From NCBI RefSeq assembly GCF_964204865.1, contig NC_135255.1:17513135-17577134 (forward strand): a DNA stretch of 64,000 nucleotides, in the 5' to 3' direction. Every line of letters starts with the position of its first letter. Position 1 is the first letter of the stretch. Origin of the DNA: Styela clava. Its lineage: Eukaryota > Chordata > Ascidiacea > Stolidobranchia > Styelidae. Below the pieces are notes generated by a model. It searched no databases and was not told the origin of the DNA. It worked only from the letters and a program-made list of their open reading frames with translations. A program made the translations under genes and the position numbers. Of this stretch, positions 12,771-64,000 are shown one piece after another.

Positions 12771-12777
12771 CAGAATT

Positions 12778-15012: not shown

Positions 15013-15018
15013 ATTCAC

Positions 15019-15172: not shown

Positions 15173-15364
15173 CAACTTTCCTCGGCCTGTTGGTGAAGAT
15201 CAGGTGTAGTACCTGTTCTATTCAGATTAATACCTGAATCGTGGGGTACTCCCCCACTCTTGTATTAATTTGATTTTTGCGACGACGAGAGCGAGGGTTC
15301 GGCTTGCCACTCCGCTCTCACCGGTCGGCTTGGCGTTGCACTACAGCCTTGACTGGCCCGTCAC
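15173..15364 (+). pseudogene. Edge U2 copy 1 (diverged 5' end)
   Basis: The first copy in the array. Eleven of the first 40 positions differ from the array consensus (positions 1-5, 9, 17, 22, 23, 31, 40). From position 41 on it appears identical to the other copies. Changes at 22-23 break the GGCC/GGCT pairing of stem I. The GUAGUA branch-site-pairing sequence survives. No TCACCGT-type PSE lies upstream, so it is probably not transcribed. Confidence 0.85.
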
Positions 15365-15653
15365 TTTCCTATTCGGAAAGTTACGATTTATATAATGTTT
15401 GTCATGTTTCTCCTACTACTTTGTAAGGCAAAGCGAGTACTCACCCTCGTTCCGTGTCTTTTGGAATGGGCGCGGAGCGTCAGGCACGAAGACAGCTGCA
15501 AATCTTCCATACTGCTTCCACCGGAGTAACTTCGGAACGCACAACAATTTCACGAATTCTTTAAATGGAAGTTAGATGGGCATTGTGATGTCACAGAGCA
15601 GAGACTGCAATTAAAATGTATTTGGTTACAGGCGAAGAGAATCTGGAATTTCT

Positions 15654-15716
15654 TTAACCGGTTAACTGCAGCGTGACGTTTGACGTAATATTTATTGTTT
15701 TAGCTTATTACGTCGC
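15654..15716. promoter_or_regulatory. Palindrome and TGACGT cluster in spacer (first of 41)
   Basis: TTAACCGGTTAA (15654-15665) is a perfect palindrome containing AACCGGTT, a Grainyhead/CP2-like site. It is followed by TGACGT, TGACGTAA and TTACGTC, CREB/ATF-like. The cluster lies nearly 690 bp before the next U2 and recurs in every unit. Two units have GACCGGTT instead (at about 47,224 and 48,395). Function is inferred from motif resemblance only. Confidence 0.35.
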
Positions 15717-15810
15717 AATGGTTACAAATTAATTTCGAGTGATTTATCCTGGTATCTCTCAAAATTATTGACGAATCTAGATCGTTTTGTGATCCCTTGC
15801 TGCAAGAGAT

Positions 15811-16020
15811 ATGCAGCGTGCTTTGGACATATGGAAGTATTTTCGTGAAACAGTTTCCGTTATTCAATGTCACTTATGTGACAAATTTACAGTGCCCAGT
15901 GTGCAAATTCTTCTTTGAGATATCATACGGAAAAACAGCATCAACTGCGCCACATGGAATAGACAATTTACGCTTTTACCGAAAACTGATTATGAATTTA
16001 TCATTGTCCAATTTTCATAA
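15811..16020 (+). pseudogene. BED-finger-like remnant in spacer (first of 42)
   Basis: The ATG at 15,811 opens MQRALDIWKYFRE, then IQCHLCDKF, and hits TGA at 15,916. W-x2-F and C-x2-C with the following hydrophobic residues resemble the first half of a BED zinc finger (hAT transposases and derived proteins). The expected H-x(n)-H half is absent (RDIIRKN where HLxxxH would be). It repeats at the same place in every unit. In four units (48,551; 50,889; 54,396; 62,579) the TGA is CGA and the frame runs to 69 codons. Probably a transposon relic carried along by the array. Confidence 0.4.
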
Positions 16021-16116
16021 TCAGCAAACTTGGTACTTCAATTATTTTTCACCTCTATTGGGTCTCTACAAATACAGTTAGTGATATTCTTTTAAATGAA
16101 ACGCTACAGGAAATAA

Positions 16117-16124
16117 ATTTGCGA
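16117..16124 (+). promoter_or_regulatory. Octamer-like motif at -225 of U2
   Basis: ATTTGCGA matches six of eight bases of the reverse octamer ATTTGCAT. It sits 225-218 bases upstream of U2, about where the distal enhancer of vertebrate U2 genes holds an octamer. It recurs in every unit. Weak evidence. Confidence 0.25.
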
Positions 16125-16276
16125 AGACGTAATCATTTCTGACAAAATTGTACATTATAAAGATGATTTGTACCTGAGATGTCAGTCAACGGTTAAAATA
16201 AATCGTAACCTTCAACCATCCAGAATGGGTCCACCATTCCCAGCCCCACTAATTAGTATTGTAAGTGGAAACTTAA

Positions 16277-16296
16277 TCACCGTCACCGGAACCGTT
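16277..16296 (+). promoter_or_regulatory. Proximal sequence element (PSE) of U2
   Basis: TCACCGTCACCGGAACCG starts 65 bases upstream of the U2 start and resembles the vertebrate snRNA PSE (TCACCGTGACTTGAA-type). The PSE binds SNAPc to direct polymerase II transcription of snRNAs. The same block precedes copies 2-42 at the same distance. There is no TATA box at -25, as expected for a polymerase II snRNA gene. Confidence 0.7.
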
Positions 16297-16341
16297 TTCA
16301 TAAATTCCCAATACATTATTGCGTGAAAACACCGACCATTT

Positions 16342-16533
16342 ATCGCTTCTTCGGCCTATTGGCTAAGATCAAGTGTAGTAACTGTTCTATTCAGATTAAT
16401 ACCTGAATCGTGGGGTACTCCCCCACTCTTGTATTAATTTGATTTTTGCGACGACGAGAGCGAGGGTTCGGCTTGCCACTCCGCTCTCACCGGTCGGCTT
16501 GGCGTTGCACTACAGCCTTGACTGGCCCGTCAC
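16342..16533 (+). ncRNA. U2 snRNA, copy 2 (reference copy)
   Basis: 192-nt U2 spliceosomal RNA, close to the 187-191 nt usual length. It starts ATCGCTTCTTCGGCC and forms stem I. GTGTAGTAACTG carries GUAGUA (positions 34-39), which pairs with the intron branch site in the prespliceosome. Next come stem IIa (TTCAGATTAATACCTGAA), stem IIb (GTGGGG-tact-CCCCAC), the Sm-protein site GATTTTTGC (positions 100-108), stem III (GAGAGC...GCTCTC) and stem IV. It ends near GGCCCGTCAC. Its spacer class is 1 (CAAACTTGG and CAGGAAATAA upstream). Confidence 0.97.
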
Positions 16534-16550
16534 TTTCCTATTCGGAAAGT
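16532..16550 (+). promoter_or_regulatory. Hairpin at U2 3' end
   Basis: ACTTTCC-tattc-GGAAAGT, a perfect 7-bp stem beginning at the last bases of U2. It is repeated in every unit. Single changes break it after the U2 copies at 22,187 (C to A in the left arm, 22,384) and 26,870 (GGAAAAT), and alter its loop after 60,772. A canonical vertebrate 3' box is not obvious, so this may be the 3'-end formation signal; that is inference. Confidence 0.4.
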
Positions 16551-17510
16551 TACGATTTATATAATGTTTGTCATGTTTCTCCTACTACTTTGTAAGGCAA
16601 AGCGAGTACTCACCCTCGTTCCGTGTCTTTTGGAATGGGCGCGGAGCGTCAGGCACGAAGACAGCTGCAAATCTTCCATACTGCTTCCACCGGAGTAACT
16701 TCGGAACGCACAACAATTTCACGAATTCTTTAAATGGAAGTTAGATGGGCATTGTGATGTCACAGAGCAGAGACTGCAATTAAAATGTATTTGGTTACAG
16801 GCGAAGAGAATCTGGAATTTCTTTAACCGGTTAACTGCAGCGTGACGTTTGACGTAATATTTATTGTTTTAGCTTATTACGTCGCAATGGTTACAAATTA
16901 ATTTCGAGTGATTTATCCTGGTATCTCTCAAAATTATTGACGAATCTAGATCGTTTTGTGATCCCTTGCTGCAAGAGATATGCAGCGTGCTTTGGACATA
17001 TGGAAGTATTTTCGTGAAACAGTTTCCGTTATTCAATGTCACTTATGTGACAAATTTACAGTGCCCAGTGTGCAAATTCTTCTTTGAGATATCATACGGA
17101 AAAACAGCATCAACTGCGCCACATGGAATAGACAATTTACGCTTTTACCGAAAACTGATTATGAATTTATCATTGTCCAATTTTCATAATCAGCAATCTT
17201 GGTACTTCAATTATTTTTCACCTCTATTGGGTCTCTACAAATACAGTTAGTGATATTCTTTTAAATGAAACGCTACAAGAGATAAATTTGCGAAGACGTA
17301 ATCATTTCTGACAAAATTGTACATTATAAAGATGATTTGTACCTGAGATGTCAGTCAACGGTTAAAATAAATCGTAACCTTCAACCATCCAGAATGGGTC
17401 CACCATTCCCAGCCCCACTAATTAGTATTGTAAGTGGAAACTTGATCACCGTCACCGGAACCGTTTTCATAAATTCCCAATACATTATTGCGTGAAAACA
17501 CCGACCATTT

Positions 17511-17702
17511 ATCGCTTCTTCGGCCTATTGGCTAAGATCAAGTGTAGTAACTGTTCTATTCAGATTAATACCTGAATCGTGGGGTACTCCCCCACTCTTG
17601 TATTAGTTTGATTTTTGCGACGACGAGAGCGAGGGTTCGGCTTGCCACTCCGCTCTCACCGGTCGGCTTGGCGTTGCACTACAGCCTTGACTGGCCCGTC
17701 AC
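17511..17702 (+). ncRNA. U2 snRNA, copy 3 (A96G type)
   Basis: Full U2 with G instead of A at position 96, four bases before the Sm site. Class 2 unit: CAAGAGATAA and CTTGATCACC upstream, AATGAAAG downstream. Confidence 0.95.
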
Positions 17703-18679
17703 TTTCCTATTCGGAAAGTTACGATTTATATAATGTTTGTCATGTTTCTCCTACTACTTTGTAAGGCAAAGCGAGTACTCACCCTCGTTCCGTGTCTTTT
17801 GGAATGGGCGCGGAGCGTCAGGCACGAAGACAGCTGCAAATCTTCCATACTGCTTCCACCGGAGTAACTTCGGAACGCACAACAATTTCACGAATTCTTT
17901 AAATGAAAGTTAGATGGGCATTGTGATGTCACAGAGCAGAGACTGCAATTAAAATGTATTTGGTTACAGGCGAAGAGAATCTGGAATTTCTTTAACCGGT
18001 TAACTGCAGCGTGACGTTTGACGTAATATTTATTGTTTTAGCTTATTACGTCGCAATGGTTACAAATTAATTTCGAGTGATTTATCCTGGTATCTCTCAA
18101 AATTATTGACGAATCTAGATCGTTTTGTGATCCCTTGCTGCAAGAGATATGCAGCGTGCTTTGGACATATGGAAGTATTTTCGTGAAACAGTTTCCGTTA
18201 TTCAATGTCACTTATGTGACAAATTTACAGTGCCCAGTGTGCAAATTCTTCTTTGAGATATCATACGGAAAAACAGCATCAACTGCGCCACATGGAATAG
18301 ACAATTTACGCTTTTACCGAAAACTGATTATGAATTTATCATTGTCCAATTTTCATAATCAGCAATCTTGGTACTTCAATTATTTTTCACCTCTATTGGG
18401 TCTCTACAAATACAGTTAGTGATATTCTTTTAAATGAAACGCTACAGGAAATAAATTTGCGAAGACGTAATCATTTCTGACAAAATTGTACATTATAAAG
18501 ATGATTTGTACCTGAGATGTCAGTCAACGGTTAAAATAAATCGTAACCTTCAACCATCCAGAATGGGTCCACCATTCCCAGCCCCACTAATTAGTATTGT
18601 AAGTGGAAACTTAATCACCGTCACCGGAACCGTTTTCATAAATTCCCAATACATTATTGCGTGAAAACACCGACCATTT

Positions 18680-18871
18680 ATCGCTTCTTCGGCCTATTGG
18701 CTAAGATCAAGTGTAGTAACTGTTCTATTCAGATTAATACCTGAATCGTGGGGTACTCCCCCACTCTTGTATTAATTTGATTTTTGCGACGACGAGAGCG
18801 AGGGTTCGGCTTGCCACTCCGCTCTCACCGGTCGGCTTGGCGTTGCACTACAGCCTTGACTGGCCCGTCAC
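18680..18871 (+). ncRNA. U2 snRNA, copy 4
   Basis: Consensus U2; class 3 unit (CAATCTTGG with CAGGAAATAA upstream). Confidence 0.95.
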
Positions 18872-19848
18872 TTTCCTATTCGGAAAGTTACGATTTATAT
18901 AATGTTTGTCATGTTTCTCCTACTACTTTGTAAGGCAAAGCGAGTACTCACCCTCGTTCCGTGTCTTTTGGAATGGGCGCGGAGCGTCAGGCACGAAGAC
19001 AGCTGCAAATCTTCCATACTGCTTCCACCGGAGTAACTTCGGAACGCACAACAATTTCACGAATTCTTTAAATGGAAGTTAGATGGGCATTGTGATGTCA
19101 CAGAGCAGAGACTGCAATTAAAATGTATTTGGTTACAGGCGAAGAGAATCTGGAATTTCTTTAACCGGTTAACTGCAGCGTGACGTTTGACGTAATATTT
19201 ATTGTTTTAGCTTATTACGTCGCAATGGTTACAAATTAATTTCGAGTGATTTATCCTGGTATCTCTCAAAATTATTGACGAATCTAGATCGTTTTGTGAT
19301 CCCTTGCTGCAAGAGATATGCAGCGTGCTTTGGACATATGGAAGTATTTTCGTGAAACAGTTTCCGTTATTCAATGTCACTTATGTGACAAATTTACAGT
19401 GCCCAGTGTGCAAATTCTTCTTTGAGATATCATACGGAAAAACAGCATCAACTGCGCCACATGGAATAGACAATTTACGCTTTTACCGAAAACTGATTAT
19501 GAATTTATCATTGTCCAATTTTCATAATCAGCAATCTTGGTACTTCAATTATTTTTCACCTCTATTGGGTCTCTACAAATACAGTTAGTGATATTCTTTT
19601 AAATGAAACGCTACAAGAGATAAATTTGCGAAGACGTAATCATTTCTGACAAAATTGTACATTATAAAGATGATTTGTACCTGAGATGTCAGTCAACGGT
19701 TAAAATAAATCGTAACCTTCAACCATCCAGAATGGGTCCACCATTCCCAGCCCCACTAATTAGTATTGTAAGTGGAAACTTAATCACCGTCACCGGAACC
19801 GTTTTCATAAATTCCCAATACATTATTGCGTGAAAACACCGACCATTT

Positions 19849-20040
19849 ATCGCTTCTTCGGCCTATTGGCTAAGATCAAGTGTAGTAACTGTTCTATTCA
19901 GATTAATACCTGAATCGTGGGGTACTCCCCCACTCTTGTATTAATTTGATTTTTGCGACGACGAGAGCGAGGGTTCGGCTTGCCACTCCGCTCTCACCGG
20001 TCGGCTTGGCGTTGCACTACAGCCTTGACTGGCCCGTCAC
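19849..20040 (+). ncRNA. U2 snRNA, copy 5
   Basis: Consensus U2; class 4 unit (CAAGAGATAA upstream but A at position 96). Confidence 0.95.
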
Positions 20041-21017
20041 TTTCCTATTCGGAAAGTTACGATTTATATAATGTTTGTCATGTTTCTCCTACTACTTTGT
20101 AAGGCAAAGCGAGTACTCACCCTCGTTCCGTGTCTTTTGGAATGGGCGCGGAGCGTCAGGCACGAAGACAGCTGCAAATCTTCCATACTGCTTCCACCGG
20201 AGTAACTTCGGAACGCACAACAATTTCACGAATTCTTTAAATGGAAGTTAGATGGGCATTGTGATGTCACAGAGCAGAGACTGCAATTAAAATGTATTTG
20301 GTTACAGGCGAAGAGAATCTGGAATTTCTTTAACCGGTTAACTGCAGCGTGACGTTTGACGTAATATTTATTGTTTTAGCTTATTACGTCGCAATGGTTA
20401 CAAATTAATTTCGAGTGATTTATCCTGGTATCTCTCAAAATTATTGACGAATCTAGATCGTTTTGTGATCCCTTGCTGCAAGAGATATGCAGCGTGCTTT
20501 GGACATATGGAAGTATTTTCGTGAAACAGTTTCCGTTATTCAATGTCACTTATGTGACAAATTTACAGTGCCCAGTGTGCAAATTCTTCTTTGAGATATC
20601 ATACGGAAAAACAGCATCAACTGCGCCACATGGAATAGACAATTTACGCTTTTACCGAAAACTGATTATGAATTTATCATTGTCCAATTTTCATAATCAG
20701 CAAACTTGGTACTTCAATTATTTTTCACCTCTATTGGGTCTCTACAAATACAGTTAGTGATATTCTTTTAAATGAAACGCTACAGGAAATAAATTTGCGA
20801 AGACGTAATCATTTCTGACAAAATTGTACATTATAAAGATGATTTGTACCTGAGATGTCAGTCAACGGTTAAAATAAATCGTAACCTTCAACCATCCAGA
20901 ATGGGTCCACCATTCCCAGCCCCACTAATTAGTATTGTAAGTGGAAACTTAATCACCGTCACCGGAACCGTTTTCATAAATTCCCAATACATTATTGCGT
21001 GAAAACACCGACCATTT

Positions 21018-21209
21018 ATCGCTTCTTCGGCCTATTGGCTAAGATCAAGTGTAGTAACTGTTCTATTCAGATTAATACCTGAATCGTGGGGTACTCCCCC
21101 ACTCTTGTATTAATTTGATTTTTGCGACGACGAGAGCGAGGGTTCGGCTTGCCACTCCGCTCTCACCGGTCGGCTTGGCGTTGCACTACAGCCTTGACTG
21201 GCCCGTCAC
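21018..21209 (+). ncRNA. U2 snRNA, copy 6
   Basis: Consensus U2; class 1 unit, opening the second four-unit block. Confidence 0.95.
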
Positions 21210-22186
21210 TTTCCTATTCGGAAAGTTACGATTTATATAATGTTTGTCATGTTTCTCCTACTACTTTGTAAGGCAAAGCGAGTACTCACCCTCGTTCCGT
21301 GTCTTTTGGAATGGGCGCGGAGCGTCAGGCACGAAGACAGCTGCAAATCTTCCATACTGCTTCCACCGGAGTAACTTCGGAACGCACAACAATTTCACGA
21401 ATTCTTTAAATGGAAGTTAGATGGGCATTGTGATGTCACAGAGCAGAGACTGCAATTAAAATGTATTTGGTTACAGGCGAAGAGAATCTGGAATTTCTTT
21501 AACCGGTTAACTGCAGCGTGACGTTTGACGTAATATTTATTGTTTTAGCTTATTACGTCGCAATGGTTACAAATTAATTTCGAGTGATTTATCCTGGTAT
21601 CTCTCAAAATTATTGACGAATCTAGATCGTTTTGTGATCCCTTGCTGCAAGAGATATGCAGCGTGCTTTGGACATATGGAAGTATTTTCGTGAAACAGTT
21701 TCCGTTATTCAATGTCACTTATGTGACAAATTTACAGTGCCCAGTGTGCAAATTCTTCTTTGAGATATCATACGGAAAAACAGCATCAACTGCGCCACAT
21801 GGAATAGACAATTTACGCTTTTACCGAAAACTGATTATGAATTTATCATTGTCCAATTTTCATAATCAGCAATCTTGGTACTTCAATTATTTTTCACCTC
21901 TATTGGGTCTCTACAAATACAGTTAGTGATATTCTTTTAAATGAAACGCTACAAGAGATAAATTTGCGAAGACGTAATCATTTCTGACAAAATTGTACAT
22001 TATAAAGATGATTTGTACCTGAGATGTCAGTCAACGGTTAAAATAAATCGTAACCTTCAACCATCCAGAATGGGTCCACCATTCCCAGCCCCACTAATTA
22101 GTATTGTAAGTGGAAACTTGATCACCGTCACCGGAACCGTTTTCATAAATTCCCAATACATTATTGCGTGAAAACACCGACCATTT

Positions 22187-22378
22187 ATCGCTTCTTCGGC
22201 CTATTGGCTAAGATCAAGTGTAGTAACTGTTCTATTCAGATTAATACCTGAATCGTGGGGTACTCCCCCACTCTTGTATTAGTTTGATTTTTGCGACGAC
22301 GAGAGCGAGGGTTCGGCTTGCCACTCCGCTCTCACCGGTCGGCTTGGCGTTGCACTACAGCCTTGACTGGCCCGTCAC
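22187..22378 (+). ncRNA. U2 snRNA, copy 7 (A96G type)
   Basis: A96G variant in a class 2 unit. Downstream hairpin is broken by C to A at 22,384, and a second private change (GTCACG for GTCATG) lies near 22,419. Confidence 0.95.
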
Positions 22379-23355
22379 TTTACTATTCGGAAAGTTACGA
22401 TTTATATAATGTTTGTCACGTTTCTCCTACTACTTTGTAAGGCAAAGCGAGTACTCACCCTCGTTCCGTGTCTTTTGGAATGGGCGCGGAGCGTCAGGCA
22501 CGAAGACAGCTGCAAATCTTCCATACTGCTTCCACCGGAGTAACTTCGGAACGCACAACAATTTCACGAATTCTTTAAATGAAAGTTAGATGGGCATTGT
22601 GATGTCACAGAGCAGAGACTGCAATTAAAATGTATTTGGTTACAGGCGAAGAGAATCTGGAATTTCTTTAACCGGTTAACTGCAGCGTGACGTTTGACGT
22701 AATATTTATTGTTTTAGCTTATTACGTCGCAATGGTTACAAATTAATTTCGAGTGATTTATCCTGGTATCTCTCAAAATTATTGACGAATCTAGATCGTT
22801 TTGTGATCCCTTGCTGCAAGAGATATGCAGCGTGCTTTGGACATATGGAAGTATTTTCGTGAAACAGTTTCCGTTATTCAATGTCACTTATGTGACAAAT
22901 TTACAGTGCCCAGTGTGCAAATTCTTCTTTGAGATATCATACGGAAAAACAGCATCAACTGAGCCACATGGAATAGACAATTTACGCTTTTACCGAAAAC
23001 TGATTATGAATTTATCATTGTCCAATTTTCATAATCAGCAATCTTGGTACTTCAATTATTTTTCACCTCTATTGGGTCTCTACAAATACAGTTAGTGATA
23101 TTCTTTTAAATGAAACGCTACAGGAAATAAATTTGCGAAGACGTAATCATTTCTGACAAAATTGTACATTATAAAGATGATTTGTACCTGAGATGTCAGT
23201 CAACGGTTAAAATAAATCGTAACCTTCAACCATCCAGAATGGGTCCACCATTCCCAGCCCCACTAATTAGTATTGTAAGTGGAAACTTAATCACCGTCAC
23301 CGGAACCGTTTTCATAAATTCCCAATACATTATTGCGTGAAAACACCGACCATTT

Positions 23356-23547
23356 ATCGCTTCTTCGGCCTATTGGCTAAGATCAAGTGTAGTAACTGTT
23401 CTATTCAGATTAATACCTGAATCGTGGGGTACTCCCCCACTCTTGTATTAATTTGATTTTTGCGACGACGAGAGCGAGGGTTCGGCTTGCCACTCCGCTC
23501 TCACCGGTCGGCTTGGCGTTGCACTACAGCCTTGACTGGCCCGTCAC
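23356..23547 (+). ncRNA. U2 snRNA, copy 8
   Basis: Consensus U2; class 3 unit. Its upstream spacer has a private GAGCC for GCGCC change near 22,962. Confidence 0.95.
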
Positions 23548-24524
23548 TTTCCTATTCGGAAAGTTACGATTTATATAATGTTTGTCATGTTTCTCCTACT
23601 ACTTTGTAAGGCAAAGCGAGTACTCACCCTCGTTCCGTGTCTTTTGGAATGGGCGCGGAGCGTCAGGCACGAAGACAGCTGCAAATCTTCCATACTGCTT
23701 CCACCGGAGTAACTTCGGAACGCACAACAATTTCACGAATTCTTTAAATGGAAGTTAGATGGGCATTGTGATGTCACAGAGCAGAGACTGCAATTAAAAT
23801 GTATTTGGTTACAGGCGAAGAGAATCTGGAATTTCTTTAACCGGTTAACTGCAGCGTGACGTTTGACGTAATATTTATTGTTTTAGCTTATTACGTCGCA
23901 ATGGTTACAAATTAATTTCGAGTGATTTATCCTGGTATCTCTCAAAATTATTGACGAATCTAGATCGTTTTGTGATCCCTTGCTGCAAGAGATATGCAGC
24001 GTGCTTTGGACATATGGAAGTATTTTCGTGAAACAGTTTCCGTTATTCAATGTCACTTATGTGACAAATTTACAGTGCCCAGTGTGCAAATTCTTCTTTG
24101 AGATATCATACGGAAAAACAGCATCAACTGCGCCACATGGAATAGACAATTTACGCTTTTACCGAAAACTGATTATGAATTTATCATTGTCCAATTTTCA
24201 TAATCAGCAATCTTGGTACTTCAATTATTTTTCACCTCTATTGGGTCTCTACAAATACAGTTAGTGATATTCTTTTAAATGAAACGCTACAAGAGATAAA
24301 TTTGCGAAGACGTAATCATTTCTGACAAAATTGTACATTATAAAGATGATTTGTACCTGAGATGTCAGTCAACGGTTAAAATAAATCGTAACCTTCAACC
24401 ATCCAGAATGGGTCCACCATTCCCAGCCCCACTAATTAGTATTGTAAGTGGAAACTTAATCACCGTCACCGGAACCGTTTTCATAAATTCCCAATACATT
24501 ATTGCGTGAAAACACCGACCATTT

Positions 24525-24716
24525 ATCGCTTCTTCGGCCTATTGGCTAAGATCAAGTGTAGTAACTGTTCTATTCAGATTAATACCTGAATCGTGGGGTA
24601 CTCCCCCACTCTTGTATTAATTTGATTTTTGCGACGACGAGAGCGAGGGTTCGGCTTGCCACTCCGCTCTCACCGGTCGGCTTGGCGTTGCACTACAGCC
24701 TTGACTGGCCCGTCAC
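24525..24716 (+). ncRNA. U2 snRNA, copy 9
   Basis: Consensus U2; class 4 unit, closing the second four-unit block. Confidence 0.95.
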
Positions 24717-25693
24717 TTTCCTATTCGGAAAGTTACGATTTATATAATGTTTGTCATGTTTCTCCTACTACTTTGTAAGGCAAAGCGAGTACTCACCCTC
24801 GTTCCGTGTCTTTTGGAATGGGCGCGGAGCGTCAGGCACGAAGACAGCTGCAAATCTTCCATACTGCTTCCACCGGAGTAACTTCGGAACGCACAACAAT
24901 TTCACGAATTCTTTAAATGGAAGTTAGATGGGCATTGTGATGTCACAGAGCAGAGACTGCAATTAAAATGTATTTGGTTACAGGCGAAGAGAATCTGGAA
25001 TTTCTTTAACCGGTTAACTGCAGCGTGACGTTTGACGTAATATTTATTGTTTTAGCTTATTACGTCGCAATGGTTACAAATTAATTTCGAGTGATTTATC
25101 CTGGTATCTCTCAAAATTATTGACGAATCTAGATCGTTTTGTGATCCCTTGCTGCAAGAGATATGCAGCGTGCTTTGGACATATGGAAGTATTTTCGTGA
25201 AACAGTTTCCGTTATTCAATGTCACTTATGTGACAAATTTACAGTGCCCAGTGTGCAAATTCTTCTTTGAGATATCATACGGAAAAACAGCATCAACTGC
25301 GCCACATGGAATAGACAATTTACGCTTTTACCGAAAACTGATTATGAATTTATCATTGTCCAATTTTCATAATCAGCAAACTTGGTACTTCAATTATTTT
25401 TCACCTCTATTGGGTCTCTACAAATACAGTTAGTGATATTCTTTTAAATGAAACGCTACAGGAAATAAATTTGCGAAGACGTAATCATTTCTGACAAAAT
25501 TGTACATTATAAAGATGATTTGTACCTGAGATGTCAGTCAACGGTTAAAATAAATCGTAACCTTCAACCATCCAGAATGGGTCCACCATTCCCAGCCCCA
25601 CTAATTAGTATTGTAAGTGGAAACTTAATCACCGTCACCGGAACCGTTTTCATAAATTCCCAATACATTATTGCGTGAAAACACCGACCATTT

Positions 25694-25885
25694 ATCGCTT
25701 CTTCGGCCTATTGGCTAAGATCAAGTGTAGTAACTGTTCTATTCAGATTAATACCTGAATCGTGGGGTACTCCCCCACTCTTGTATTAATTTGATTTTTG
25801 CGACGACGAGAGCGAGGGTTCGGCTTGCCACTCCGCTCTCACCGGTCGGCTTGGCGTTGCACTACAGCCTTGACTGGCCCGTCAC
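25694..25885 (+). ncRNA. U2 snRNA, copy 10
   Basis: Consensus U2; class 1 unit, opening the third four-unit block. Confidence 0.95.
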
Positions 25886-26869
25886 TTTCCTATTCGGAAA
25901 GTTACGATTTATATAATGTTTGTCATGTTTCTCCTACTACTTTGTAAGGCAAAGCGAGTACTCACCCTCGTTCCGTGTCTTTTGGAATGGGCGCGGAGCG
26001 TCAGGCACGAAGACAGCTGCAAATCTTCCATACTGCTTCCACCGGAGTAACTTCGGAACGCACAACAATTTCACGAATTCTTTAAATGGAAGTTAGATGG
26101 GCATTGTGATGTCACAGAGCAGAGACTGCAATTAAAATGTATTTGGTTACAGGCGAAGAGAATCTGGAATTTCTTTAACCGGTTAACTGCAGCGTGACGT
26201 TTGACGTAATATTTATTGTTTTAGCTTATTACGTCGCAATGGTTACAAATTAATTTCGAGTGATTTATCCTGGTATCTCTCAAAATTATTGACGAATCTA
26301 GATCGTTTTGTGATCCCTTGCTGCAAGAGATATGCAGCGTGCTTTGGACATATGGAAGTATTTTCGTGAAACAGTTTCCGTTATTCAATGTCACTTATGT
26401 GACAAATTTACAGTGCCCAGTGTGCAAATTCTTCTTTGAGATATCATACGGAAAAACAGCATCAACTGCGCCACATGGAATAGACAATTTACGCTTTTAC
26501 CGAAAACTGATTATGAATTATGAATTTATCATTGTCCAATTTTCATAATCAGCAATCTTGGTACTTCAATTATTTTTCACCTCTATTGGGTCTCTACAAA
26601 TACAGTTAGTGATATTCTTTTAAATGAAACGCTACAAGAGATAAATTTGCGAAGACGTAATCATTTCTGACAAAATTGTACATTATAAAGATGATTTGTA
26701 CCTGAGATGTCAGTCAACGGTTAAAATAAATCGTAACCTTCAACCATCCAGAATGGGTCCACCATTCCCAGCCCCACTAATTAGTATTGTAAGTGGAAAC
26801 TTGATCACCGTCACCGGAACCGTTTTCATAAATTCCCAATACATTATTGCGTGAAAACACCGACCATTT

Positions 26870-27061
26870 ATCGCTTCTTCGGCCTATTGGCTAAGATCAA
26901 GTGTAGTAACTGTTCTATTCAGATTAATACCTGAATCGTGGGGTACTCCCCCACTCTTGTATTAGTTTGATTTTTGCGACGACGAGAGCGAGGGTTCGGC
27001 TTGCCACTCCGCTCTCACCGGTCGGCTTGGCGTTGCACTACAGCCTTGACTGGCCCGTCAC
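26870..27061 (+). ncRNA. U2 snRNA, copy 11 (A96G type)
   Basis: A96G variant in a class 2 unit. The upstream spacer has a 7-bp tandem duplication (TGAATTA) at about 26,513, making the unit 1,176 bp. The 3' hairpin arm is changed to GGAAAAT. Confidence 0.95.
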
Positions 27062-28038
27062 TTTCCTATTCGGAAAATTACGATTTATATAATGTTTGTC
27101 ATGTTTCTCCTACTACTTTGTAAGGCAAAGCGAGTACTCACCCTCGTTCCGTGTCTTTTGGAATGGGCGCGGAGCGTCAGGCACGAAGACAGCTGCAAAT
27201 CTTCCATACTGCTTCCACCGGAGTAACTTCGGAACGCACAACAATTTCACGAATTCTTTAAATGAAAGTTAGATGGGCATTGTGATGTCACAGAGCAGAG
27301 ACTGCAATTAAAATGTATTTGGTTACAGGCGAAGAGAATCTGGAATTTCTTTAACCGGTTAACTGCAGCGTGACGTTTGACGTAATATTTATTGTTTTAG
27401 CTTATTACGTCGCAATGGTTACAAATTAATTTCGAGTGATTTATCCTGGTATCTCTCAAAATTATTGACGAATCTAGATCGTTTTGTGATCCCTTGCTGC
27501 AAGAGATATGCAGCGTGCTTTGGACATATGGAAGTATTTTCGTGAAACAGTTTCCGTTATTCAATGTCACTTATGTGACAAATTTACAGTGCCCAGTGTG
27601 CAAATTCTTCTTTGAGATATCATACGGAAAAACAGCATCAACTGCGCCACATGGAATAGACAATTTACGCTTTTACCGAAAACTGATTATGAATTTATCA
27701 TTGTCCAATTTTCATAATCAGCAATCTTGGTACTTCAATTATTTTTCACCTCTATTGGGTCTCTACAAATACAGTTAGTGATATTCTTTTAAATGAAACG
27801 CTACAGGAAATAAATTTGCGAAGACGTAATCATTTCTGACAAAATTGTAAATTATAAAGATGATTTGTACCTGAGATGTCAGTCAACGGTTAAAATAAAT
27901 CGTAACCTTCAACCATCCAGAATGGGTCCACCATTCCCAGCCCCACTAATTAGTATTGTAAGTGGAAACTTAATCACCGTCACCGGAACCGTTTTCATAA
28001 ATTCCCAATACATTATTGCGTGAAAACACCGACCATTT

Positions 28039-28230
28039 ATCGCTTCTTCGGCCTATTGGCTAAGATCAAGTGTAGTAACTGTTCTATTCAGATTAATACC
28101 TGAATCGTGGGGTACTCCCCCACTCTTGTATTAATTTGATTTTTGCGACGACGAGAGCGAGGGTTCGGCTTGCCACTCCGCTCTCACCGGTCGGCTTGGC
28201 GTTGCACTACAGCCTTGACTGGCCCGTCAC
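28039..28230 (+). ncRNA. U2 snRNA, copy 12
   Basis: Consensus U2; class 3 unit. Upstream spacer has TTGTAAATT for TTGTACATT near 27,850. Confidence 0.95.
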
Positions 28231-29207
28231 TTTCCTATTCGGAAAGTTACGATTTATATAATGTTTGTCATGTTTCTCCTACTACTTTGTAAGGCAAAGC
28301 GAGTACTCACCCTCGTTCCGTGTCTTTTGGAATGGGCGCGGAGCGTCAGGCACGAAGACAGCTGCAAATCTTCCATACTGCTTCCACCGGAGTAACTTCG
28401 GAACGCACAACAATTTCACGAATTCTTTAAATGGAAGTTAGATGGGCATTGTGATGTCACAGAGCAGAGACTGCAATTAAAATGTATTTGGTTACAGGCG
28501 AAGAGAATCTGGAATTTCTTTAACCGGTTAACTGCAGCGTGACGTTTGACGTAATATTTATTGTTTTAGCTTATTACGTCGCAATGGTTACAAATTAATT
28601 TCGAGTGATTTATCCTGGTATCTCTCAAAATTATTGACGAATCTAGATCGTTTTGTGATCCCTTGCTGCAAGAGATATGCAGCGTGCTTTGGACATATGG
28701 AAGTATTTTCGTGAAACAGTTTCCGTTATTCAATGTCACTTATGTGACAAATTTACAGTGCCCAGTGTGCAAATTCTTCTTTGAGATATCATACGGAAAA
28801 ACAGCATCAACTGCGCCACATGGAATAGACAATTTACGCTTTTACCGAAAACTGATTATGAATTTATCATTGTCCAATTTTCATAATCAGCAATCTTGGT
28901 ACTTCAATTATTTTTCACCTCTATTGGGTCTCTACAAATACAGTTAGTGATATTCTTTTAAATGAAACGCTACAAGAGATAAATTTGCGAAGACGTAATC
29001 ATTTCTGACAAAATTGTACATTATAAAGATGATTTGTACCTGAGATGTCAGTCAACGGTTAAAATAAATCGTAACCTTCAACCATCCAGAATGGGTCCAC
29101 CATTCCCAGCCCCACTAATTAGTATTGTAAGTGGAAACTTAATCACCGTCACCGGAACCGTTTTCATAAATTCCCAATACATTATTACGTGAAAACACCG
29201 ACCATTT

Positions 29208-29399
29208 ATCGCTTCTTCGGCCTATTGGCTAAGATCAAGTGTAGTAACTGTTCTATTCAGATTAATACCTGAATCGTGGGGTACTCCCCCACTCTTGTAT
29301 TAATTAGATTTTTGCGACGACGAGAGCGAGGGTTCGGCTTGCCACTCCGCTCTCACCGGTCGGCTTGGCGTTGCACTACAGCCTTGACTGGCCCGTCAC
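29208..29399 (+). ncRNA. U2 snRNA, copy 13 (T99A)
   Basis: Class 4 unit with T to A at position 99, directly before the Sm site (AATTAGATTTTT). The change also removes a chance stop, so a spurious 61-codon frame appears at 29,276. Upstream ATTATTACG for ATTATTGCG. Confidence 0.95.
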
Positions 29400-30376
29400 T
29401 TTCCTATTCGGAAAGTTACGATTTATATAATGTTTGTCATGTTTCTCCTACTACTTTGTAAGGCAAAGCGAGTACTCACCCTCGTTCCGTGTCTTTTGGA
29501 ATGGGCGCGGAGCGTCAGGCACGAAGACAGCTGCAAATCTTCCATACTGCTTCCACCGGAGTAACTTCGGAACGCACAACAATTTCACGAATTCTTTAAA
29601 TGGAAGTTAGATGGGCATTGTGATGTCACAGAGCAGAGACTGCAATTAAAATGTATTTGGTTACAGGCGAAGAGAATCTGGAATTTCTTTAACCGGTTAA
29701 CTGCAGCGTGACGTTTGACGTAATATTTATTGTTTTAGCTTATTACGTCGCAATGGTTACAAATTAATTTCGAGTGATTTATCCTGGTATCTCTCAAAAT
29801 TATTGACGAATCTAGATCGTTTTGTGATCCCTTGCTGCAAGAGATATGCAGCGTGCTTTGGACATATGGAAGTATTTTCGTGAAACAGTTTCCGTTATTC
29901 AATGTCACTTATGTGACAAATTTACAGTGCCCAGTGTGCAAATTCTTCTTTGAGATATCATACGGAAAAACAGCATCAACTGCGCCACATGGAATAGACA
30001 ATTTACGCTTTTACCGAAAACTGATTATGAATTTATCATTGTCCAATTTTCATAATCAGCAAACTTGGTACTTCAATTATTTTTCACCTCTATTGGGTCT
30101 CTACAAATACAGTTAGTGATATTCTTTTAAATGAAACGCTACAGGAAATAAATTTGCGAAGACGTAATCATTTCTGACAAAATTGTACATTATAAAGATG
30201 ATTTGTACCTGAGATGTCAGTCAACGGTTAAAATAAATCGTAACCTTCAACCATCCAGAATGGGTCCACCATTCCCAGCCCCACTAATTAGTATTGTAAG
30301 TGGAAACTTAATCACCGTCACCGGAACCGTTTTCATAAATTCCCAATACATTATTGCGTGAAAACACCGACCATTT

Positions 30377-30568
30377 ATCGCTTCTTCGGCCTATTGGCTA
30401 AGATCAAGTGTAGTAACTGTTCTATTCAGATTAATACCTGAATCGTGGGGTACTCCCCCACTCTTGTATTAATTTGATTTTTGCGACGACGAGAGCGAGG
30501 GTTCGGCTTGCCACTCCGCTCTCACCGGTCGGCTTGGCGTTGCACTACAGCCTTGACTGGCCCGTCAC
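30377..30568 (+). ncRNA. U2 snRNA, copy 14
   Basis: Consensus U2; class 1 unit, start of a shortened two-unit block. Confidence 0.95.
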
Positions 30569-31545
30569 TTTCCTATTCGGAAAGTTACGATTTATATAAT
30601 GTTTGTCATGTTTCTCCTACTACTTTGTAAGGCAAAGCGAGTACTCACCCTCGTTCCGTGTCTTTTGGAATGGGCGCGGAGCGTCAGGCACGAAGACAGC
30701 TGCAAATCTTCCATACTGCTTCCACCGGAGTAACTTCGGAACGCACAACAATTTCACGAATTCTTTAAATGGAAGTTAGATGGGCATTGTGATGTCACAG
30801 AGCAGAGACTGCAATTAAAATGTATTTGGTTACAGGCGAAGAGAATCTGGAATTTCTTTAACCGGTTAACTGCAGCGTGACGTTTGACGTAATATTTATT
30901 GTTTTAGCTTATTACGTCGCAATGGTTACAAATTAATTTCGAGTGATTTATCCTGGTATCTCTCAAAATTATTGACGAATCTAGATCGTTTTGTGATCCC
31001 TTGCTGCAAGAGATATGCAGCGTGCTTTGGACATATGGAAGTATTTTCGTGAAACAGTTTCCGTTATTCAATGTCACTTATGTGACAAATTTACAGTGCC
31101 CAGTGTGCAAATTCTTCTTTGAGATATCATACGGAAAAACAGCATCAACTGCGCCACATGGAATAGACAATTTACGCTTTTACCGAAAACTGATTATGAA
31201 TTTATCATTGTCCAATTTTCATAATCAGCAATCTTGGTACTTCAATTATTTTTCACCTCTATTGGGTCTCTACAAATACAGTTAGTGATATTCTTTTAAA
31301 TGAAACGCTACAAGAGATAAATTTGCGAAGACGTAATCATTTCTGACAAAATTGTACATTATAAAGATGATTTGTACCTGAGATGTCAGTCAACGGTTAA
31401 AATAAATCGTAACCTTCAACCATCCAGAATGGGTCCACCATTCCCAGCCCCACTAATTAGTATTGTAAGTGGAAACTTGATCACCGTCACCGGAACCGTT
31501 TTCATAAATTCCCAATACATTATTGCGTGAAAACACCGACCATTT

Positions 31546-31737
31546 ATCGCTTCTTCGGCCTATTGGCTAAGATCAAGTGTAGTAACTGTTCTATTCAGAT
31601 TAATACCTGAATCGTGGGGTACTCCCCCACTCTTGTATTAGTTTGATTTTTGCGACGACGAGAGCGAGGGTTCGGCTTGCCACTCCGCTCTCACCGGTCG
31701 GCTTGGCGTTGCACTACAGCCTTGACTGGCCCGTCAC
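31546..31737 (+). ncRNA. U2 snRNA, copy 15 (A96G type)
   Basis: A96G variant in a class 2 unit; followed directly by class 1 rather than class 3. Confidence 0.95.
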
Positions 31738-32714
31738 TTTCCTATTCGGAAAGTTACGATTTATATAATGTTTGTCATGTTTCTCCTACTACTTTGTAAG
31801 GCAAAGCGAGTACTCACCCTCGTTCCGTGTCTTTTGGAATGGGCGCGGAGCGTCAGGCACGAAGACAGCTGCAAATCTTCCATACTGCTTCCACCGGAGT
31901 AACTTCGGAACGCACAACAATTTCACGAATTCTTTAAATGAAAGTTAGATGGGCATTGTGATGTCACAGAGCAGAGACTGCAATTAAAATGTATTTGGTT
32001 ACAGGCGAAGAGAATCTGGAATTTCTTTAACCGGTTAACTGCAGCGTGACGTTTGACGTAATATTTATTGTTTTAGCTTATTACGTCGCAATGGTTTCAA
32101 ATTAATTTCGAGTGATTTATCCTGGTATCTCTCAAAATTATTGACGAATCTAGATCGTTTTGTGATCCCTTGCTGCAAGAGATATGCAGCGTGCTTTGGA
32201 CATATGGAAGTATTTTCGTGAAACAGTTTCCGTTATTCAATGTCACTTATGTGACAAATTTACAGTGCCCAGTGTGCAAATTCTTCTTTGAGATATCATA
32301 CGGAAAAACAGCATCAACTGCGCCACATGGAATAGACAATTTACGCTTTTACCGAAAACTGATTATGAATTTATCATTGTCCAATTTTCATAATCAGCAA
32401 ACTTGGTACTTCAATTATTTTTCACCTCTATTGGGTCTCTACAAATACAGTTAGTGATATTCTTTTAAATGAAACGCTACAGGAAATAAATTTGCGAAGA
32501 CGTAATCATTTCTGACAAAATTGTACATTATAAAGATGATTTGTACCTGAGATGTCAGTCAACGGTTAAAATAAATCGTAACCTTCAACCATCCAGAATG
32601 GGTCCACCATTCCCAGCCCCACTAATTAGTATTGTAAGTGGAAACTTAATCACCGTCACCGGAACCGTTTTCATAAATTCCCAATACATTATTGCGTGAA
32701 AACACCGACCATTT

Positions 32715-32906
32715 ATCGCTTCTTCGGCCTATTGGCTAAGATCAAGTGTAGTAACTGTTCTATTCAGATTAATACCTGAATCGTGGGGTACTCCCCCACT
32801 CTTGTATTAATTTGATTTTTGCGACGACGAGAGCGAGGGTTCGGCTTGCCACTCCGCTCTCACCGGTCGGCTTGGCGTTGCACTACAGCCTTGACTGGCC
32901 CGTCAC
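32715..32906 (+). ncRNA. U2 snRNA, copy 16
   Basis: Consensus U2; class 1 unit, opening the last four-unit block. Confidence 0.95.
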
Positions 32907-33883
32907 TTTCCTATTCGGAAAGTTACGATTTATATAATGTTTGTCATGTTTCTCCTACTACTTTGTAAGGCAAAGCGAGTACTCACCCTCGTTCCGTGTC
33001 TTTTGGAATGGGCGCGGAGCGTCAGGCACGAAGACAGCTGCAAATCTTCCATACTGCTTCCACCGGAGTAACTTCGGAACGCACAACAATTTCACGAATT
33101 CTTTAAATGGAAGTTAGATGGGCATTGTGATGTCACAGAGCAGAGACTGCAATTAAAATGTATTTGGTTACAGGCGAAGAGAATCTGGAATTTCTTTAAC
33201 CGGTTAACTGCAGCGTGACGTTTGACGTAATATTTATTGTTTTAGCTTATTACGTCGCAATGGTTACAAATTAATTTCGAGTGATTTATCCTGGTATCTC
33301 TCAAAATTATTGACGAATCTAGATCGTTTTGTGATCCCTTGCTGCAAGAGATATGCAGCGTGCTTTGGACATATGGAAGTATTTTCGTGAAACAGTTTCC
33401 GTTATTCAATGTCACTTATGTGACAAATTTACAGTGCCCAGTGTGCAAATTCTTCTTTGAGATATCATACGGAAAAACAGCATCAACTGCGCCACATGGA
33501 ATAGACAATTTACGCTTTTACCGAAAACTGATTATGAATTTATCATTGTCCAATTTTCATAATCAGCAATCTTGGTACTTCAATTATTTTTCACCTCTAT
33601 TGGGTCTCTACAAATACAGTTAGTGATATTCTTTTAAATGAAACGCTACAAGAGATAAATTTGCGAAGACGTAATCATTTCTGACAAAATTGTACATTAT
33701 AAAGATGATTTGTACCTGAGATGTCAGTCAACGGTTAAAATAAATCGTAACCTTCAACCATCCAGAATGGGTCCACCATTCCCAGCCCCACTAATTAGTA
33801 TTGTAAGTGGAAACTTGATCACCGTCACCGGAACCGTTTTCATAAATTCCCAATACATTATTGCGTGAAAACACCGACCATTT

Positions 33884-34075
33884 ATCGCTTCTTCGGCCTA
33901 TTGGCTAAGATCAAGTGTAGTAACTGTTCTATTCAGATTAATACCTGAATCGTGGGGTACTCCCCCACTCTTGTATTAGTTTGATTTTTGCGACGACGAG
34001 AGCGAGGGTTCGGCTTGCCACTCCGCTCTCACCGGTCGGCTTGGCGTTGCACTACAGCCTTGACTGGCCCGTCAC
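33884..34075 (+). ncRNA. U2 snRNA, copy 17 (A96G type)
   Basis: A96G variant in a class 2 unit; the last A96G copy in the window. Confidence 0.95.
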
Positions 34076-35052
34076 TTTCCTATTCGGAAAGTTACGATTT
34101 ATATAATGTTTGTCATGTTTCTCCTACTACTTTGTAAGGCAAAGCGAGTACTCACCCTCGTTCCGTGTCTTTTGGAATGGGCGCGGAGCGTCAGGCACGA
34201 AGACAGCTGCAAATCTTCCATACTGCTTCCACCGGAGTAACTTCGGAACGCACAACAATTTCACGAATTCTTTAAATGAAAGTTAGATGGGCATTGTGAT
34301 GTCACAGAGCAGAGACTGCAATTAAAATGTATTTGGTTACAGGCGAAGAGAATCTGGAATTTCTTTAACCGGTTAACTGCAGCGTGACGTTTGACGTAAT
34401 ATTTATTGTTTTAGCTTATTACGTCGCAATGGTTACAAATTAATTTCGAGTGATTTATCCTGGTATCTCTCAAAATTATTGACGAATCTAGATCGTTTTG
34501 TGATCCCTTGCTGCAAGAGATATGCAGCGTGCTTTGGACATATGGAAGTATTTTCGTGAAACAGTTTCCGTTATTCAATGTCACTTATGTGACAAATTTA
34601 CAGTGCCCAGTGTGCAAATTCTTCTTTGAGATATCATACGGAAAAACAGCATCAACTGCGCCACATGGAATAGACAATTTACGCTTTTACCGAAAACTGA
34701 TTATGAATTTATCATTGTCCAATTTTCATAATCAGCAATCTTGGTACTTCAATTATTTTTCACCTCTATTGGGTCTCTACAAATACAGTTAGTGATATTC
34801 TTTTAAATGAAACGCTACAGGAAATAAATTTGCGAAGACGTAATCATTTCTGACAAAATTGTACATTATAAAGATGATTTGTACCTGAGATGTCAGTCAA
34901 CGGTTAAAATAAATCGTAACCTTCAACCATCCAGAATGGGTCCACCATTCCCAGCCCCACTAATTAGTATTGTAAGTGGAAACTTAATCACCGTCACCGG
35001 AACCGTTTTCATAAATTCCCAATACATTATTGCGTGAAAACACCGACCATTT

Positions 35053-35244
35053 ATCGCTTCTTCGGCCTATTGGCTAAGATCAAGTGTAGTAACTGTTCTA
35101 TTCAGATTAATACCTGAATCGTGGGGTACTCCCCCACTCTTGTATTAATTTGATTTTTGCGACGACGAGAGCGAGGGTTCGGCTTGCCACTCCGCTCTCA
35201 CCGGTCGGCTTGGCGTTGCACTACAGCCTTGACTGGCCCGTCAC
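35053..35244 (+). ncRNA. U2 snRNA, copy 18
   Basis: Consensus U2; class 3 unit. Confidence 0.95.
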
Positions 35245-40897: not shown

Positions 40898-41088
40898 ATC
40901 GCTCTTCGGCCTATTGGCTAAGATCAAGTGTAGTAACTGTTCTATTCAGATTAATACCTGAATCGTGGGGTACTCCCCCACTCTTGTATTAATTTGATTT
41001 TTGCGACGACGAGAGCGAGGGTTCGGCTTGCCACTCCGCTCTCACCGGTCGGCTTGGCGTTGCACTACAGCCTTGACTGGCCCGTCAC
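40898..41088 (+). ncRNA. U2 snRNA, copy 23 (one-base deletion)
   Basis: ATCGCTCTTCGGCC instead of ATCGCTTCTTCGGCC: one T lost at positions 6-7, in the 5' tail before stem I that pairs with U6 (helix II). The rest is consensus. CAAGAGATAA spacer. Confidence 0.95.
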
Positions 41089-59602: not shown

Positions 59603-59794
59603 ATCGCTTCTTCGGCCTATTGGCTAAGATCAAGTGTAGTAACTGTTCTATTCAGATTAATACCTGAATCGTGGGGTACTCCCCCACTCTTGTATTAATT
59701 TGATTTTTGCGACGACGAGAGCGAGGGTTCGGCTTGCCACTCCGCTCTCACCGGTCGGCTTGGCGTTGCACTACAGCCTTGACTGGCCCGTCAC
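59603..59794 (+). ncRNA. U2 snRNA, copy 39
   Basis: Consensus U2; CAGGAGATAA spacer. Confidence 0.95.
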
Positions 59795-60771: not shown

Positions 60772-60963
60772 ATCGCTTCTTCGGCCTATTGGCTAAGATC
60801 AAGTGTAGTAACTGTTCTATTCAGATTAATACCTGAATCGTGGGGTACTCCCCCACTCTTGTATTAATTTGATTTTTGCGACGACGAGAGCGAGGGTTCG
60901 GCTTGCCACTCCGCTCTCACCGGTCGGCTTGGCGTTGCACTACAGCCTTGACTGGCCCGTCAC
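60772..60963 (+). ncRNA. U2 snRNA, copy 40
   Basis: Consensus U2; CAGGAGATAA spacer. Loop of the 3' hairpin reads TGTTC. Confidence 0.95.
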
Positions 60964-61940
60964 TTTCCTGTTCGGAAAGTTACGATTTATATAATGTTTG
61001 TCATGTTTCTCCTACTACTTTGTAAGGCAAAGCGAGTACTCACCCTCGTTCCGTGTCTTTTGGAATGGGCGCGGAGCGTCAGGCACGAAGACAGCTGCAA
61101 ATCTTCCATACTGCTTCCACCGGAGTAACTTCGGAACGCACAACAATTTCACGAATTCTTTAAATGGAAGTTAGATGGGCATTGTGATGTCACAGAGCAG
61201 AGACTGCAATTAAAATGTATTTGGTTACAGGCGAAGAGAATCTGGAATTTCTTTAACCGGTTAACTGCAGCGTGACGTTTGACGTAATATTTATTGTTTT
61301 AGCTTATTACGTCGCAATGGTTACAAATTAATTTCGAGTGATTTATCCTGGTATCTCTCAAAATTATTGACGAATCTAGATCGTTTTGTGATCCCTTGCT
61401 GCAAGAGATATGCAGCGTGCTTTGGACATATGGAAGTATTTTCGTGAAACAGTTTCCGTTATTCAATGTCACTTATGTGACAAATTTACAGTGCCCAGTG
61501 TGCAAATTCTTCTTTGAGATATCATACGGAAAAACAGCATCAACTGCGCCACATGGAATAGACAATTTACGCTTTTACCGAAAACTGATTATGAATTTAT
61601 CATTGTCCAATTTTCATAATCAGCAATCTTGGTACTTCAATTATTTTTCACCTCTATTGGGTCTCTACAAATACAGTTAGTGATATTCTTTTAAATGAAA
61701 CGCTACAGGAAATAAATTTGCGAAGACGTAATCATTTCTGACAAAATTGTACATTATAAAGATGATTTGTACCTGAGATGTCAGTCAACGGTTAAAATAA
61801 ATCGTAACCTTCAACCATCCAGAATGGGTCCACCATTCCCAGCCCCACTAATTAGTATTGTAAGTGGAAACCTAATCACCGTCACCGGAACCGTTTTCAT
61901 AAATTCCCAATACATTATTGCGTGAAAACACCGACCATTT

Positions 61941-62132
61941 ATCGCTTCTTCGGCCTATTGGCTAAGATCAAGTGTAGTAACTGTTCTATTCAGATTAATA
62001 CCTGAATCGTGGGGTACTCCCCCACTCTTGTATTAATTTGATTTTTGCGACGACGAGAGCGAGGGTTCGGCTTGCCACTCCGCTCTCACCGGTCGGCTTG
62101 GCGTTGCACTACAGCCTTGACTGGCCCGTCAC
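61941..62132 (+). ncRNA. U2 snRNA, copy 41
   Basis: Consensus U2; AACCTAATC before the PSE, as in copy 36. Confidence 0.95.
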
Positions 62133-62578
62133 TTTCCTATTCGGAAAGTTACGATTTATATAATGTTTGTCATGTTTCTCCTACTACTTTGTAAGGCAAA
62201 GCGAGTACTCACCCTCGTTCCGTGTCTTTTGGAATGGGCGCGGAGCGTCAGGCACGAAGACAGCTGCAAATCTTCCATACTGCTTCCACCGGAGTAACTT
62301 CGGAACGCACAACAATTTCACGAATTCTTTAAATGGAAGTTAGATGGGCATTGTGATGTCACAGAGCAGAGACTGCAATTAAAATGTATTTGGTTACAGG
62401 CGAAGAGAATCTGGAATTTCTTTAACCGGTTAACTGCAGCGTGACGTTTGACGTAATATTTATTGTTTTAGCTTATTACGTCGCAATGGTTACAAATTAA
62501 TTTCGAGTGATTTATCCTGGTATCTCTCAAAATTATTGACGAATCTAGATCGTTTTGTGATCCCTTGCTGCAAGAGAT

Positions 62579-62788
62579 ATGCAGCGTGCTTTGGACATAT
62601 GGAAGTATTTTCGTGAAACAGTTTCCGTTATTCAATGTCACTTATGTGACAAATTTACAGTGCCCAGTGTGCAAATTCTTCTTCGAGATATCATACGGAA
62701 AAACAGCATCAACTGCGCCACATGGAATAGACAATTTACGCTTTTACCGAAAACTGATTATGAATTTATCATTGTCCAATTTTCATAA
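62579..62788 (+). pseudogene. BED-like remnant, open variant 4
   Basis: CGA at codon 36 as at 48,551; a private G to C lies near 62,830. Confidence 0.35.
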
Positions 62789-63109
62789 TCAGCAATCTTG
62801 GTACTTCAATTATTTTTCACCTCTATTGGCTCTCTACAAATACAGTTAGTGATATTCTTTTAAATGAAACGCTACAGGAAATAAATTTGCGAAGACGTAA
62901 TCATTTCTGACAAAATTGTACATTATAAAGATGATTTGTACCTGAGATGTCAGTCAACGGTTAAAATAAATCGTAACCTTCAACCATCCAGAATGGGTCC
63001 ACCATTCCCAGCCCCACTAATTAGTATTGTAAGTGGAAACTTAATCACCGTCACCGGAACCGTTTTCATAAATTCCCAATACATTATTGCGTGAAAACAC
63101 CGACCATTT

Positions 63110-63301
63110 ATCGCTTCTTCGGCCTATTGGCTAAGATCAAGTGTAGTAACTGTTCTATTCAGATTAATACCTGAATCGTGGGGTACTCCCCCACTCTTGT
63201 ATTAATTTGATTTTTGCGACGACGAGAGCGAGGGTTCGGCTTGCCACTCCGCTCTCACCGGTCGGCTTGGCGTTGCACTACAGCCTTGACTGGCCCGTCA
63301 C
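63110..63301 (+). ncRNA. U2 snRNA, copy 42
   Basis: Consensus U2, last copy in the window. Downstream TATATGATG for TATATAATG. The unit is cut by the window end. Confidence 0.95.
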
Positions 63302-64000
63302 TTTCCTATTCGGAAAGTTACGATTTATATGATGTTTGTCATGTTTCTCCTACTACTTTGTAAGGCAAAGCGAGTACTCACCCTCGTTCCGTGTCTTTTG
63401 GAATGGGCGCGGAGCGTCAGGCACGAAGACAGCTGCAAATCTTCCATACTGCTTCCACCGGAGTAACTTCGGAACGCACAACAATTTCACGAATTCTTTA
63501 AATGGAAGTTAGATGGGCATTGTGATGTCACAGAGCAGAGACTGCAATTAAAATGTATTTGGTTACAGGCGAAGAGAATCTGGAATTTCTTTAACCGGTT
63601 AACTGCAGCGTGACGTTTGACGTAATATTTATTGTTTTAGCTTATTACGTCGCAATGGTTACAAATTAATTTCGAGTGATTTATCCTGGTATCTCTCAAA
63701 ATTATTGACGAATCTAGATCGTTTTGTGATCCCTTGCTGCAAGAGATATGCAGCGTGCTTTGGACATATGGAAGTATTTTCGTGAAACAGTTTCCGTTAT
63801 TCAATGTCACTTATGTGACAAATTTACAGTGCCCAGTGTGCAAATTCTTCTTTGAGATATCATACGGAAAAACAGCATCAACTGCGCCACATGGAATAGA
63901 CAATTTACGCTTTTACCGAAAACTGATTATGAATTTATCATTGTCCAATTTTCATAATCAGCAATCTTGGTACTTCAATTATTTTTCACCTCTATTGGGT

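Follow-up and report, generated by a model that had tools for sequence, protein, structure and literature searches.

A tandem array of at least 42 U2 snRNA genes in Styela clava, with a four-unit higher-order repeat and a hybrid unit at a shift of its register

Tandem snRNA genes are a textbook example of concerted evolution. The respective shares of unequal crossover and gene conversion in this process are hard to see, because the units are nearly identical and arrays can be missing from assemblies. In human, the RNU2 locus is composed of 6.1-kb units, present in 5–82 copies (PMC4132748), its arrays extend over ~40 to >200 kb, and the locus was missing from the assembly (PMC3795722). The copy number of RNU2 changes at a rate of ~5 x 10^-3 per generation, and non-sister chromatids cross over extremely rarely (PMC4132748). 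Unequal sister chromatid exchange was suggested for the histone cluster of Drosophila melanogaster (PMC12400953).

The window analyzed here is a 64-kb stretch of the Styela clava genome. A cmscan search of the whole window with the Rfam U2 model (RF00004) showed the presence of 42 matches above the gathering threshold, all on the plus strand and all over model positions 1–192, with scores of 122.5–146.1 bits (gathering threshold 46) and E-values of 2.4e-24 or better; these E-values, together with the periodicity, exclude a chance origin. This agrees with the first-pass annotation of the DNA, in which at least 42 tandem U2 snRNA genes were proposed. No match at gathering threshold to families other than U2 was found in the 64-kb window. 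The U2 genes start at position 15174 and the last one at 63110, 891 bases before the window end; the array continues beyond this end, and 42 copies are therefore a minimum. One U2 gene is present per unit, and the nearly identical units follow each other head to tail, as in tandem loci of the RNU2 type. The array and its distinctive copies are as follows.

15174..64000, plus strand: tandem array of 42 U2 snRNA units, 41 complete and the last truncated at the end of the window (RF00004 matches, spacings)
15174..15366, plus strand: unit 1, the left-edge U2 copy, 122.5 bits, likely a pseudogene (RF00004 match, alignment)
16342..16535, plus strand: U2 gene of unit 2, the first copy with a normal upstream spacer (promoter side), gene equal to the consensus (RF00004 match, alignment)
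25694..26869, plus strand: unit 10, 1176 bp long, its spacer containing a tandemly duplicated 7-bp segment (ATTATGA) (spacings, alignment)
40898..41090, plus strand: U2 gene of unit 23, lacking one nucleotide near its 5' end, 138.5 bits (RF00004 match, alignment)
63110..63303, plus strand: U2 gene of unit 42, the last in the window, its unit running off the end (RF00004 match)

The start-to-start spacing is exactly 1169 bp in 37 of the 41 intervals; the other four spacings are 1168 bp after unit 1, 1176 bp after unit 10, 1168 bp after unit 23 and 1171 bp, or 2 extra bases, after unit 28. Mean pairwise identity among the 40 complete units 2–41 is 99.65% (minimum 98.7%), and 21 of the 780 unit pairs are identical. 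The array was not picked up by Tandem Repeats Finder, for which the longest period given was 500. The description of the array as uniform in the first-pass annotation holds on average, but it hides a four-unit higher-order repeat within units 1–18.

The consensus gene is 194 nt long; the length of 192 nt given previously is the number of positions in the Rfam model. Both motifs named together with it, the branch-site-pairing GUAGUA (GTAGTA at 34, gene nt 34–39) and an Sm-type site, located inside TTTGATTTTTGCG at 97, are present in the unit consensus. Sequences equal to the consensus are found in 31 of the 42 genes, the variant A96G is common to five genes (units 3, 7, 11, 15 and 17), and six genes, those of units 1, 13, 23, 25, 28 and 34, have unique sequences. 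Variants of the gene in the array include A96G, T59A, T99A, C150T and T158C. A full gene had been ascribed to every unit, which fails for unit 1, with nine differing positions, and for unit 23, in which one T is missing at gene position 6 or 7.

The gene of unit 6, identical to the consensus, folds with a z-score of -4.32, and that of unit 1 with a z-score of -3.91, 0 of 200 shuffles being as good in either case, so the fold does not separate unit 1 from good copies. Nucleotides 54–61 and 90–97 are complementary over 8 bp and form a stem in the predicted fold. In a comparison by eye with the Rfam consensus, each end pair of this stem has both of its nucleotides replaced (U-A to A-U at 54–97, U-A to C-G at 61–90), and the pairing is therefore kept; this comparison involves one consensus and is not a phylogenetic test. 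A96G makes a U-G pair from a U-A pair, while T59A of unit 28 would break a pair. The pairing of 54–61 with 90–97 resembles the long stem II/near-Sm-site structure of nt 40–111 found by SHAPE in naked human U2 (PMC10584915).

A strong hairpin lies across the predicted U2 3' end (16528–16554, unit positions 187–213). When folded in unit 6, it contains 10 base pairs, with an energy of -11.7 kcal/mol and a z-score of -3.23 (1 of 200 shuffles as good), and 39 of the 42 units retain its core without change. This hairpin is possibly part of the precursor or of the 3'-end signal.

Substitution sites make up 5 of 194 gene positions and 30 of 975 spacer positions (first 45 nt of unit 1 excluded; Fisher P = 1), although the power of the test is low with 35 variable sites, and a two-fold difference between gene and spacer could be missed. 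Since gene and spacer vary alike, homogenization acts on the entire unit, as previously proposed, and purifying selection on the gene is not visible within the array. Transitions account for 24 of 36 variable sites, a count that includes the misaligned deletion of unit 23. CpG is not depleted in the spacer, with an observed/expected ratio of 1.15 vs 0.85 in the flank.

The RNA polymerase II promoter of animal snRNA genes is characterized by a PSE near -55 and a 3' box, elements that vary from one animal group to another. Judging from other animal snRNA genes, every 1,169-bp unit is probably its own transcription unit, with a promoter located in the last part of the spacer before it, and the copies would jointly supply the U2 dosage. 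CRE-like motifs are present in the spacer consensus, namely, TGACGT at unit positions 502 and 509 and TTACGT at 536 (span 502–542), those at 509 and 536 forming an inverted pair by eye; the motifs could be regulatory. A search for a second RNA gene in the spacer, performed against Rfam at E up to 1 in the window 14900–16550 (left edge and one unit), recovered two U2 genes and otherwise only a weak snR76 match on the minus strand (26.5 bits vs the gathering threshold of 55, E 0.0059), which was taken as chance. No Pfam match with E up to 1 was found for the 94-aa spacer ORF of unit 1, an ORF that recurs in most of the units. In a scan of viral contigs, a set from which records close to the genome of the window may be missing, no match to a 24-base piece of this U2 was detected.

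The U2 gene itself is ordinary-looking, and the interest of the array is its readable unit order, not its size. As markers, 12 substitution sites with the minor base in at least two of units 1–41 were used. Two features emerge from their order.

15174..36221, plus strand: four-unit higher-order repeat A-B-C-D (4 x 1169 = 4,676 bp), the register moving by two units at unit 15 (marker order, lag test)
31546..32714, plus strand: unit 15, a hybrid unit with 96G and 396A (type C) on the left and 856A (type A) on the right (markers)

The order of units 1–18 is A-B-C-D A-B-C-D A-B-C-D A-B-(C/A)-B-C-D, so that the four-unit block is represented about five times. Type A is marked by 856A (units 1, 5, 9 and 13), type B by 937A, 940G and 1103G (units 2, 6, 10, 14 and 16), type C by 96G and 396A (units 3, 7, 11 and 17), and type D by 937A and 940G (units 4, 8, 12 and 18). 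Within units 2–18, units four apart differ on average by 1.62 substitutions, a value reached in none of 10,000 permutations of the unit order (3.70 after permutation), and units eight apart by 1.56 vs 3.7 (5 of 10,000 permutations as low), and closer neighbors are more distant from each other, with 5.31 substitutions between adjacent units (lag 1) and 5.43 between units three apart (lag 3). Unit 18 was picked as the border after the pattern had been seen; the test over units 1–41, which covers all units and also counts an alignment gap at position 5, gave a lag-4 marker sharing of 34 vs a permuted mean of 13.8, not reached in 20,000 permutations.

No four-unit period was found in units 19–41 (3.37 substitutions at lag 4 vs 3.20 permuted), and block amplification is therefore seen in part of the array only. 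Adjacent units of this part are slightly closer to each other (lag 1, 2.77 vs 3.19 permuted; 142 of 10,000 as low). Markers of type D occur outside the block in units 22, 36 and 37; units 22 and 37 are identical to units 4, 8 and 18, and type D is accordingly not confined to the block. Among the matches listed in a literature search, no title was found that treats snRNA genes and a higher-order repeat jointly; the claim that the combination is unreported is not made.

The exchange point in unit 15 lies between unit positions 396 and 856. Unit 15 is followed by units of types B, C and D (units 16, 17 and 18), the register having moved by two units. The hybrid is read as the scar expected of unequal exchange, in which the left part of a C unit is joined to the right part of the next A unit; such a junction takes out two units and shifts the register by two, as observed. 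Gene conversion alone would leave the register unchanged.

At the left edge, the gene of unit 1 departs from the consensus at nine positions within the first 40 nt, namely, 2, 4 (gap), 5, 9, 17, 22, 23, 31 and 40. Beyond nt 40, the rest of the gene is without differences, and in the unit only 856, the A marker, differs. No similarity to the unit was detected upstream: the best local score of the 150 bases against the unit end is 14 (shuffle mean 15.6, 86% of shuffles at least as good), and comparison of the 15,173-base flank with two units gave no blastn match better than E = 0.10. As no upstream unit similarity was detected, unit 1 is probably without a promoter; together with its nine differing positions, this makes it probably a dead copy, a pseudogene. 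Sequence drift at its 5' end, where exchange would no longer reach, may account for the differences.

The left flank contains several copies of a transposon-like element in both orientations, ~85–93% alike (9655–14126), one of them with a THAP-domain fragment (10974–11132; PF05485, E 1.4e-05). Related self-complementary elements, 70–89% alike in pieces, are located at 34–167, 3459–3701 and 14276–14524; they carry CTCCCGAAGTATG-like ends and are, by eye, MITE-like. A 66-bp repeat in two tandem copies is present at 14881–15014, ~160 bp before the left edge of the array. Exon-like stretches were noted on the minus strand at 931–6688, including two similar first-exon candidates at 6530–6622 and 4623–4715. 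These stretches resemble a TMEM45-type membrane protein, an assignment that is not claimed; Pfam gave no match for three pieces taken singly or for three joined pieces.

The copy number or the four-unit periodicity would be an artefact if the assembly had walked the same 4.7-kb stretch several times, and the close likeness of units 1–4 to units 5–8, which differ at only 3 alignment columns (first part of unit 1 excluded), is what such a path would produce. This explanation is improbable, as other four-unit pairs among units 1–16 differ at 4 to 14 columns, no N bases are present in the window, and the blocks carry changes of their own, namely, three private substitutions in unit 7, two in unit 11, one each in units 12, 13 and 15, and the 7-bp duplication of unit 10; these private changes argue against a path copied in assembly. 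The frequency of private substitutions is also similar in the two parts of the array, with 8 in the 17 units 2–18 and 14 in the 23 units 19–41 (15 with the misaligned deletion of unit 23). Homogenization mainly by gene conversion with rare crossovers is a possible but less likely explanation for the similarity of the units. The markers 940G and 744C are scattered without clear order in units 19–41, as short conversion tracts would leave them; however, conversion alone keeps both unit number and register, and the ordered four-unit repeats and the shift at unit 15 need exchange that changes copy number.

For the left edge, recombination of the array into an older U2 retropseudogene may be considered, with similarity starting from about U2 nt 6 and the switch to the array after nt 40. 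The local alignment of unit 1 does begin at U2 nt 6, the DNA before it being unrelated, and both the upstream 150 bases, no better than shuffles, and the flank, with no blastn match better than E = 0.10, are consistent with such an origin. Loss of the promoter by rearrangement followed by drift would, however, give the same picture, and the 3' end of a pseudogene and any target-site duplication are not visible; the retropseudogene is a possible, though not favored, source of the edge.

The reading preferred here is that of a multi-copy animal U2 locus, the copies of which very probably remain similar through unequal exchange. This exchange, probably between sister chromatids, would involve whole units and sometimes blocks of several units. 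The hybrid unit 15 and the shift of register by two would result from a subsequent exchange in which two units were lost, and the left edge, which falls inside the first U2 gene, would be a promoterless end beyond the reach of exchange. In this locus the rare markers, taken in the order of the units, indicate that blocks were duplicated and that one deletion arose by exchange, and the step size of exchange, four units and then two, is readable from marker order. Held with less confidence, though still favored, is the specific history in which a four-gene block (4.7 kb, one variant A96G) was amplified to about five copies at the array edge, two genes were then lost in one mappable exchange, and the outermost gene became a dead end beyond exchange.

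Among the described systems, the human RNU2 locus at 17q21 is similar in the head-to-tail order, one U2 gene per unit and a nearly perfect array (PMC3795722), and its copy range includes 42 (PMC4132748). The length of the array, considered unusual in the first-pass annotation, is not so in view of human arrays of ~40 to >200 kb (PMC3795722) with 5–82 copies (PMC4132748). The human unit differs in size, 6.1 kb vs 1.169 kb here, and the sections of these reports that were drawn on mention no four-unit higher-order repeat for RNU2. In Xenopus, a comparable number of 40 U2 copies is located on chromosome 8 of X. tropicalis and 8L of X. laevis (PMC10361878). The toadfish Halobatrachus didactylus shares the short unit, with an 820-bp U2 product, and its U2 genes are an exception to the rule that spacers are more variable than genes; the toadfish units differ in having been obtained by PCR and cloning, their order not being given in the portion of the article used, and the PSE, DSE and 3' box were identified there and not here (PMC3544641). 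The histone cluster of D. melanogaster consists of protein-coding units of another gene family, but it is likewise fully resolved and has a similar within-array divergence, with a median of 0.378–0.457% (PMC12400953). The array described here is a further example of the tandem U2 arrangement already known from other animals.
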